A stretch of DNA of 26,460 nt, taken from positions 1-26,460 of the IMG/VR virus record IMGVR_UViG_3300046723_000111, one strand, 5' to 3'. The stretch comes from a virus. The notes under the pieces were generated by a model. That model searched no databases, had not been told where the DNA came from, and was given only the letters and a program-made list of their open reading frames with translations. The position numbers and the translations under genes are program-made. Below are positions 1-2,310 of the stretch, in pieces; within the stretch, counting starts at the first letter, position 1, and every line of letters starts with the position of its first letter.

Positions 1-1105
1 GGGCCTTATTGTAGACGCCGCCGACGCCGCTCTTGTGGCCGCCGACGTGGCCGAGGATCGTCTCCACGATATGGGGCGGCACGTCGAAGCGCTCGTGCAA
101 GGCGGTCGATATCGAGCGCCGGAAGTCATGCAGGCGCCAGGGCGCGACCGCGGGGCCGAGCTTGGCGTCGAGCTGTTTTTTGGGCGCGGTGAATTGGGAG
201 AACGGGCCGTCACCGTAGCCGAACACCAGATCCCGATCGGGCCGGTGCTGCAGCCGGGCCGCGAGGATGGCACGCGCCGGCGGCGAGAGCGGGATGACAT
301 GCTCGCGGCTGTTCTTGACGCGGGCGCCCGGCAGGGTAATCAACGCCGCCCCGATATCGATCTCGCCGCGTCGCAGGCTGGCGATCTCGTCGCGCCGGGC
401 GCCGGTGAGGATGAGAAGCCGGACGATGGCCGCATAGTCGTCGTCCACGTCCTCGCCGAGCGCGCGCCATATGGCGCCGAGCTCGGGATCGGTGACGACA
501 TGGTCGCGGACGAAGGGTTCGCACGGCAGATTCGTGAAGGCGACCGGGTTCGATTCAATGAGCCCTTCGCGGCAGGCCCACATAAAGAACGCGGACCAGG
601 AAGCGCGCGACCTGGTGGCCGTCGCCGGGCCGCTGGACGCGCTGACCTCGGTGAGGCGCCGGGCGATCATGGCGCGGGTCACGGCCGTAATCGCCTCGCG
701 GTGCAGCGGGAGCAAATGCTTGTTGAGGTGCCGGATCACCTGGCGCAGTGTCGCCGGCTTCAACCGCGGCGCTTTCCAGACGAGATACCGCGGCAGCAGG
801 GCGCCGATCGTGGTGGCCGCCTCGACCCGGGCGCGAGATCGGTCGGCCGCCGGATCGCCGCCGAGCCGCCGGGCCGCCAGCAAGTCCTTGGCCTTCGCGC
901 GCGCCGCCGCTGCGGGGACGATCGCCGGCGAGCCCAGCGATATCTTCCGGGCGCGGCCGTGGACCTCGTACATGACGGTCCAGGTCCGGGCGCCGCTGGC
1001 GCGGACGCGGAGCCCGAAGCCGGGCAGGTCCTCGTCCCAAAACGTCGTGTCGGTCTTGTCGGCTGGGCAGGCCAGGGTGCGGATCGTCTTGTCGGAGAGC
1101 TTCAT
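1..1105 (-). CDS. int: Tyrosine-family site-specific integrase, 3' end cut by window
   Basis: This gene runs off the left edge; 368 residues are visible. It would recombine the phage attP with the host attB. The N-terminus (about 1-90) resembles the DUF4102 arm-binding domain of P4-type integrases (DxxLPGFGLRV near 25-34). A core-binding SAM-like domain follows at about 98-190, and the catalytic domain from about 205. The catalytic set is visible: Arg237 in TGARRDE, Lys264, His326-x-x-Arg329 in HDFRR, His353 in LGHVGG, and the nucleophile Tyr365 in VYNKA just before the edge. Only a short C-terminal tail is missing. The ATG at 1105 is preceded by AAGAGG at a good distance. The upstream segment carries GGGTAGGG repeats. 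Family assignment rests on motifs; the attachment target is not visible. Confidence 0.97.
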   Translation of the reverse strand, partial: MKLSDKTIRTLACPADKTDTTFWDEDLPGFGLRVRASGARTWTVMYEVHGRARKISLGSPAIVPAAAARAKAKDLLAARRLGGDPAADRSRARVEAATTIGALLPRYLVWKAPRLKPATLRQVIRHLNKHLLPLHREAITAVTRAMIARRLTEVSASSGPATATRSRASWSAFFMWACREGLIESNPVAFTNLPCEPFVRDHVVTDPELGAIWRALGEDVDDDYAAIVRLLILTGARRDEIASLRRGEIDIGAALITLPGARVKNSREHVIPLSPPARAILAARLQHRPDRDLVFGYGDGPFSQFTAPKKQLDAKLGPAVAPWRLHDFRRSISTALHERFDVPPHIVETILGHVGGHKSGVGGVYNKA

Positions 1106-1130: not shown

Positions 1131-1170
1131 GGGGTAGGGTTGGGGTAGCGGGTAGGGCGCGGGGTAGGTG
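1131..1170 (+). repeat. GGGTAGGG repeat cluster A (four copies)
   Basis: Four direct copies of a GGGTAG(GG) motif lie in 40 bases directly upstream of the integrase start. The central TA steps fall at 1135, 1146, 1153 and 1165, so two of the three spacings are 11-12 bases. The same motif recurs in cluster B. Likely a protein-binding array (integrase arm sites or excisionase sites), which is inference. Confidence 0.8.
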
Positions 1171-1372
1171 ATCCAGGCTTCCACCCATTTCCATTGGTTG
1201 CTACGCTAGTGTGCGGTTAGTCATTGATACATCGATCTTTTCTGCATCAGGTTTCCAACCTTAGCAATTCCTCGCCATGCATTGCAAGCGTCAAAATTAC
1301 ACAATACATGTGCAGATTAGCGGCTGATGCGCGGTTAATACAGTCAATCTATCAATGGCTTATCATGTGACG

Positions 1373-1470
1373 CCTACCCAGGAAAAGCGCCGGGTAGGGC
1401 CTGGGTAGGGTTTTGCGCAAATCGACGCCGGGTAGGGCCTAAGTAGGGCCAGGGTAGGGGCCAAGGTAGG
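1373..1470 (+). repeat. GGGTAGGG repeat cluster B, 11-base phased
   Basis: Six direct copies of GGGTAGGG-like motifs have TA steps at 1395, 1406, 1433, 1444, 1455 and 1466. All spacings are 11 bases except one of 27. The period fits one DNA helical turn, so bound proteins would sit on one face. One inverted copy (CCTACCCA) lies at 1373-1380. Over 1430-1470 the unit is close to GGGTAGGGCCN in tandem. Confidence 0.85.
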
Positions 1471-1574: not shown

Positions 1575-1754
1575 TCAGTCCTCGCCCTCGGCTAGGGCCG
1601 CCACCGCGAGCATGTCCGCGATGAGGCAGCGGCGAACGCGGGCCGCACATCGATAGCGGCATTCCCCGTCGCCGGCGTGCGGGCAGCGTAGGCGCAGACG
1701 CGGGGCGCCGTCGGCGGGCTCAGCCCTCGTCCCATTGTCGCGCTGGTTGCCCAT
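1575..1754 (-). CDS. Possible small Cys-rich protein
   Basis: A 59-residue frame starting MGNQRDNG, not recognised. It has a basic stretch followed by four cysteines (C-P-H, then C-R-Y-R-C, then R-R-C) and a helical, acidic C-terminus (AVAALAEGED). The cysteines could bind a metal ion in a small DNA-binding fold, which is a guess. Codons are rich in G or C at the third position. The chosen ATG at 1754 follows a GGGGGG run and overlaps the end of the XRE gene by 35 bases, consistent with translational coupling. A longer start at 1799 exists but adds a sequence with no RBS. It may be a chance frame in GC-rich DNA. Confidence 0.45.
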   Translation of the reverse strand: MGNQRDNGTRAEPADGAPRLRLRCPHAGDGECRYRCAARVRRCLIADMLAVAALAEGED

Positions 1755-2043
1755 TGTCCCCCCACGACTTCGGCCGGATGCGCGGCATGGGCGTCGCACG
1801 CACGAGCGGCGGCCCCGCCTCCGGGTCCATGCGCATGTCCTTCATTCTGCAGTGCAACGCGCGCGCCATATGCTCGAGCACCTCGACGGTGATCCGCCGG
1901 TGGCCCTGCTCGAAATGATAGATCGCGTGCTTGCTGACCCCGATCGCTTGGCCGAGCGCGGCCTGCGTCATGAGGCGGTGCTCGCGGATCCGCGCGATCC
2001 GCTTGCCAATGACCGCATCTCTTTTGCTGATAACCTGGTCCAT
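1720..2043 (-). CDS. XRE (Cro/CI-type) HTH regulator
   Basis: A 107-residue DNA-binding protein. The helix-turn-helix lies at about residues 16-62: IGKRIARIREHR, then QAALGQAIGVSKHAIYHFEQG, the usual xre pattern of QxxLA..xGVSxxxIxxxExG. The C-terminus is a short Pro/Arg-rich tail with no peptidase domain, so this is not a LexA-like CI. AAGAGGAG sits 8 bases before the ATG at 2043; a GTG directly upstream (2046) is less well spaced. It is divergent from the LuxR-type gene, so it probably binds in the 2044-2310 gap and acts as the prophage repressor or Cro analogue. The role is inference; the fold is clear. Confidence 0.9.
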   Translation of the reverse strand: MDQVISKRDAVIGKRIARIREHRLMTQAALGQAIGVSKHAIYHFEQGHRRITVEVLEHMARALHCRMKDMRMDPEAGPPLVRATPMPRIRPKSWGDNGQPARQWDEG

Positions 2044-2310
2044 CACCGGCGCTCCTCTTGAGTTAAGTTGCGTTGTGATTGATCCCCGGTATTTTTCTCC
2101 CGGCCGTCGTTACCGCCCCGATCCAATATGAAGTCAGGATGACACTCATTGCCACCAAAACGTGTAGCTATATGACCCCCATTTCCACTTATAGCCGCCG
2201 CCGATAGCGGCTCGCCCAGCGCCCGCCATCCACGGGTTGTGTCAATTATGATTCCGTTTCGCGATTTTCACGTTAAATTGACCCCTAATTTGTTAGGGGC
2301 GCCTATCCGG
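2044..2310. promoter_or_regulatory. Divergent control region between the XRE and LuxR-type genes
   Basis: This gap separates the two divergent regulators, so promoters and operators are expected here. Visible symmetric elements are AGCCGC/GCGGCT at 2193-2198 and 2207-2212, an imperfect palindrome CTTGAGTTAAG at 2057-2067 touching the XRE ribosome binding site, and a perfect 7-base inverted repeat at 2282-2299. A TTGACC at 2278-2283 could be a -35 element for the rightward gene, but no good -10 is seen. Confidence 0.45.
2282..2299 (+). promoter_or_regulatory. Hairpin or operator in the leader of the LuxR-type gene
   Basis: CCCCTAA, a 4-base loop TTTG, then TTAGGGG: a perfect 7-base inverted repeat ending 11 bases before the ATG at 2311. 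The 3' arm contains AGGGG, the only Shine-Dalgarno-like sequence for that start, so in RNA the stem would hide it. As DNA it could be a repressor operator. The two readings cannot be separated from sequence. Confidence 0.5.

Follow-up and report, generated by a model that had tools for sequence, protein, structure and literature searches.

The window, the whole 26,460-nucleotide stretch analysed here (IMG/VR record IMGVR_UViG_3300046723_000111), carries at positions 1132–1470 what is very probably the lambda-type phage attachment site (attP) of a temperate soil phage, in which the CTACCC/GGGTAGGG words serve as arm-type sites for the tyrosine integrase that the phage encodes. As such, the site is of an ordinary kind, and its motif had not been described before. 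The assignment as arm-type sites is based on the occurrence of the motif in positions flanking a core at fixed distances, the three-domain architecture of the integrase, and a parallel arrangement across the integrase family. The features of the region are as follows.

2–1105, minus strand: tyrosine integrase gene (int), truncated by the contig end (Pfam Arm-DNA-bind_3, Phage_int_M and Phage_integrase; PHROG 1, integrase)
1132–1169, plus strand: candidate arm-type sites on the proximal (P′) side, with GGGTAG at 1132, 1143, 1150 and 1162, read as CTACCC in the strand of int; proximal pair kept in 20 of 20 loci
1217–1229, minus strand: possible, weak IHF site on the P′ side, TATCAATGACTAA, with one mismatch to WATCAANNNNTTR; read from the sequence and partly conserved in relatives
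1271–1288, minus strand: candidate core of attP, where crossover would occur: CTTGCAATGCATGGCGAG, containing an imperfect inverted repeat CTTGC/GCGAG around AATGCATG
1350–1362, plus strand: predicted IHF site of the P arm, TATCAATGGCTTA; no other stretch of the window matches the consensus exactly, and 0.33 matches would be expected over the full 26 kb
1373–1380, minus strand: candidate inverted arm-type site, near −100 (about −101) from the core centre in 20 of 20 loci
1392–1410, plus strand: candidate inner distal (P) arm-type pair at 1392 and 1403, 11 bp apart; kept in 20 of 20 loci
1430–1470, plus strand: outer distal repeats at 1430, 1441, 1452 and 1465, varying in number among relatives (missing in locus L012, altered in others)
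1720–2046, minus strand: XRE-type HTH regulator gene (Pfam HTH_31/HTH_3) beyond the P arm, co-directional with int; related genes lie upstream of attP in loci L007 and L010

The window contains 14 copies of the word GGGTAG where 4.87 would be expected; none of 100 shuffles reached 14, and nine of the copies fall within 1132–1457, where by proportion approximately 0.06 would be expected per 340 bp. The repeats that an earlier note on this DNA had reported beside the integrase gene are real, and its coordinates were exact to the base with one exception, the last TA step of the distal cluster (cluster B), which is located at 1467 and not at 1466; all the other TA steps of that cluster were as described. 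Of the ten direct copies it had counted, eight are exact (1132, 1143, 1150, 1162, 1392, 1403, 1430, and 1452) and two are degenerate (AAGTAGGG at 1441–1448 and AAGGTAGG at 1463–1470). The inverted copy reported at 1373–1380 is present, with the exact word at 1374–1379, and a second inverted word lies at 1523–1528. Helical phasing held mostly in cluster B (spacings of 11, 27, 11, 11, and 12 bp) and was less good in the proximal cluster A of the window, where spacings of 11, 7, and 12 bp are poorer than the clean 11 bp of its relatives. The imperfect phasing of the outer distal sites and of cluster A counts against the attP reading. The AT-rich stretch described between the clusters was also recovered, with positions 1201–1350 having approximately 44% G + C compared with 65–75% in both flanks.

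Intact relatives of the truncated integrase comprise 412–413 amino acids, and full-length genes are present in L007 and L010. Its arm-binding, core-binding, and catalytic domains (PF13356, PF22022, and PF00589) all scored above the cut-off, and the catalytic residues R237, K264, H326, R329, H353, and Y365, assigned by motif and not by structure, were invariant in the clade alignment. In the window and its relatives, int is transcribed away from att, with the arm sites positioned between att and the start of int. The lambda attP sits at the 3′ end of int. No sigma-70-like promoter was found by scan. A small conserved Cys-rich frame (window 1575–1799, minus strand; also L007:1821–1997), with the pattern CPH..DGECRYRCAARV.RCLIAD, is located between the XRE-type gene and attP; the window copy had no PHROG match.

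The window was compared with 19 IMG/VR loci encoding close relatives of the integrase, 16 of which cover the whole integrase query at 86–97% identity and three of which end early. Both repeat clusters, whose absence upstream of close integrase relatives would have spoken against the earlier note's proposal, are kept in all 19. Anchored on CTTGCAATGCATGGCGAG (window 1271–1288), the 20 sequences align without gaps over 247 bp, and this 18-mer is the longest invariant run, the next longest being 8 and 6 bases. The distal pair lies approximately −131/−120 from the core centre in all 20 loci, with the window deviating by no more than 2 bp, and the proximal pair lies at +121/+132 in 18 loci; L003 and the window carry four words on this side, at +112 to +142. 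Additional distal and proximal copies differ in number, often by steps of 11 or 12 bp. The conserved positions, set against the variable extra copies in the 20 loci, indicate that five sites are constant and the others expendable. Upstream of the distal pair, L083/L012 carry approximately six 9-bp repeats, TCCAAATTG, in place of the outer distal array.

An alternative reading takes the repeats as operators or recombination directionality factor (RDF; excisionase) sites for the int promoter and places attP elsewhere. It accords with the nearby XRE regulator gene, with the position of the proximal cluster adjoining int, and with phage 186, in which the Apl RDF sites are likewise direct repeats one helical turn apart (PMC7498355). 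In L007 and L015–L017, however, approximately 180 bp are inserted between the arm sites and the int ATG, so that relative to this codon the sites stand at −203 to −236 but relative to the core still at +121. The sites thus keep their place with respect to the core and lose it with respect to int, which speaks more for arm-type sites than for an operator linked to int. With sites that flank a conserved core at fixed distances and stay there in the insert loci, we consider the operator or RDF reading unlikely. Of the two proposals in the earlier note, an attP region and an int promoter bound by an RDF, the first, read with arm-type sites, is supported by the clusters in all 19 relatives, the fixed core distances, and the one-turn repeats of more distant relatives; the second gained no specific support. 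The insert contains a small open frame, MEMLWIRTPEHDRRFAWGDDYAGDGW..., at L007:2816–3004 and at the same place in L015–L017, which ends at the int start codon and possibly encodes a small partner protein of the integrase.

Under the attP reading, the N-terminal arm-binding domain of the integrase would bind the CTACCC/GGGTAGGG words, with the P arm comprising two distal sites and one inverted site, the P′ arm comprising the proximal pair, both approximately 100–132 bp from the core, and strand exchange occurring within the 18-bp core. The spacing of one helical turn would place neighbouring integrase protomers on the same face of the DNA, and the AT-rich spacer, into which IHF probably introduces a bend, would allow each heterobivalent protomer to contact the core and an arm site at once. 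The IHF-like site in the P′ arm is poor, which counts against this reading. Extra repeat copies would be gained and lost, often in steps of approximately 11 bp. An AT-rich inverted repeat, GAGATATTGTCTATATTAGACATATCTC, between the inverted arm site and the core is present in many of L003–L021 and degenerate in the window; it is possibly an operator or RDF site.

The arrangement resembles that of lambda attP and Int in its integrase with separate domains for arm binding, core binding, and catalysis, in the candidate arm sites flanking a core, in the predicted use of IHF, and in its scale of approximately 240 bp (PMC4880445; PDB 1z1g, 5j0n), although the arm-domain family and the motif differ and lambda Int is a weak sequence match to the window integrase. 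It also resembles the IntS–attL module of KplE1/HK620, in which int is transcribed away from att with the arm sites between them. In KplE1, IntS represses the promoter of its gene, which overlaps attL (PMC2951348), and the likeness predicts negative autoregulation in the window phage. Because the P′ sites lie directly upstream of int, integrase bound to them probably represses its own gene and so limits its own synthesis. KplE1 targets argW (PMC2951348).

More distant relatives were collected by a profile search of 398 genomes, which yielded related integrases in bacterial chromosomes, and by a search with a broader alignment, which yielded more viral loci, mostly 26–47% identical. Most of the chromosomal relatives lie, by reading, downstream of a reversed tRNA 3′ half cut at the anticodon loop. 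We scanned 50 non-redundant loci for exact repeats of at least 7 bases within 120 bp upstream of int. Repeats at a lag of 11 bp were found in 23 of the 50 loci (0.27 expected; 200 shuffles gave at most 3), and all other lags stayed at 4 or below. The words differ between loci (CTTCCCA, GTTACC, GCTTACC, CTACCC, TGATTGCT, and GACTAGAA). No lag-11 peak was found further upstream of int in these loci. The pattern YTWCC fits most of the words on the int strand, and 21 of 51 loci had pairs of it spaced by 11 bp, compared with 0–3 for other lags. In the tRNA-integrated relatives, the distance from the crossover to the first 11-bp repeat was 106–137 bp, with the anticodon position estimated via the T-loop, and the core-to-arm distance in the window clade was 112–121 bp. 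This agreement independently places the crossover at the 18-mer, and agreement with mapped tRNA crossovers is a further point against operators or RDF sites.

The comparison was extended to 73 non-redundant PF13356 integrases from 70 genomes, with 38 XerC/D-type genes (PF02899) as a control. Lag 12 was found in 35 of the 73 loci, lag 10 in 12, and lag 11 in 7 (approximately 0.7 expected per lag), compared with two of 38 controls each for lags 11 and 12; the repeats thus accompany arm-domain integrases and not XerC/D-type enzymes, which again does not fit an operator or RDF function. The words spaced by 12 bp are TGTTGGTAT and similar, in the opposite orientation relative to int from the motif of the window, and KGGKA pairs at lag 12 occurred in 15 of 80 loci and in none of the controls. 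Formation of G-quadruplexes regulating int or replication is very improbable: the GGGTAGGG pairs match the quadruplex pattern G3+N1-7 (read from the sequence), but related integrases keep the 11-bp phasing with CTTCCCA, GTTACC, TGATTGCT, or GACTAGAA, words incapable of forming them. Equally improbable is a functionless, neutrally expanded short repeat, for which the variable number of outer distal copies among relatives would speak, as all 20 loci retain five sites at conserved distances and the architecture recurs across the family with unrelated motifs.

In this integrase family, few elements have known arm-type sites; the authors describing at least one integrative element could not recognise arm-type sites by sequence (PMC5991714). 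The attP of ICEMlSymR7A from Mesorhizobium japonicum comprises 283 bp with five arm motifs TGKTGGTATC, all required for efficient integration (PMC11963761). As proposed for the window, att lies directly upstream of the integrase gene (intS) and there are several arm motifs. Its motif TGKTGGTATC agrees with the words TGTTGGTAT that recur at 12-bp spacing in front of other Arm-DNA-bind_3 integrase genes. By contrast, the CTACCC of the window has the opposite orientation, a spacing of 11 bp, and up to approximately 10 copies, and belongs to another element with presumably another target. The nearest solved relatives of the N-terminal domain are the arm domains of the HPI and CP4-like integrases (PDB 3jtz, 3rmp, 3ju0), which share the domain alone with the window and differ in their DNA sites.

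As a tentative generalisation, Arm-DNA-bind_3 integrases may use at least two arm-site dialects (YTWCC at 11 bp and, in the opposite orientation, KGGKA at 12 bp), located at a near-constant distance of 106–137 bp from the crossover so that attP cores could be predicted from sequence across a very large family, and the window clade may have expanded its array and left tRNA targets. The spacing rule itself seems to hold across a large integrase family. The subfamily of the window would use the second dialect, with its 11-bp spacing and opposite orientation relative to int; no description of this was found in the literature searched, mostly outside subscription journals. The two-dialect rule is a more interesting product than the attP itself. 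One-turn spacing and a near-fixed crossover distance provide a simple rule by which sequence alone would suffice to locate attP, arm sites, and probable crossovers of islands and prophages; in the window phage, an exact 18 bp is named as the candidate crossover. Repeats spaced by 10 bp in the 12 lag-10 loci (L177, L182, L188, L194, L199, L211, L216, and others) include several of AGTCCA type and often lie farther from int than the arm repeats; they are candidate RDF (excisionase) sites.

The bacterial attachment site (attB) was not identified by an exact search for the 18-mer in approximately 85,000 genomes, the sole match lying within a mutS-like gene with no integrase or tRNA nearby. No integrated copy of the window clade was found, every core-spanning copy being an unbroken attP, and no recombined att halves were found in IMG/VR, where further P-side matches comprised three unrelated sequences and one ending at the core. 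Genome contigs searched by peptide pattern yielded no integrase relatives, and phage records yielded no DNA match. ARAGORN and Rfam found no tRNA in the attP region, and by reading there was no TTCGA T-loop from the core to the distal arm. A tRNA as attB was rejected because no tRNA part is recognisable in attP, unlike in the nearest tRNA-targeting relatives; lacking a tRNA 3′ half, the phage probably does not target a tRNA that it restores. These negative results on attB, integrated copies, and a tRNA part weigh against the attP reading. The 3′ end of a protein gene (frame LAMHCKR..., stop after 12 codons) was also rejected, as the codon pattern was at chance (3 versus 4 in the reversed control; 385 genomes), the changes in relatives were mostly nonsynonymous by eye, and the stop was lost in L004/L005.

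A search of other viral contigs for three GGGTAGGG-like units gave no match outside the window clade that had this integrase. A different recurrent block, GGGTAGGGGTGGGTAGGGGTGAGGGTAGGGG, was observed in viral contigs L022, L029, L036, L044, L054, L058, and L069, which had no integrase match. The 42.7-kb viral contig L301 (IMGVR_UViG_3300046788_000246) stops two bases before the core, and the identical sequence continues in L019, from another sample; this end is suggestive of what may be alternative junctions at the core.
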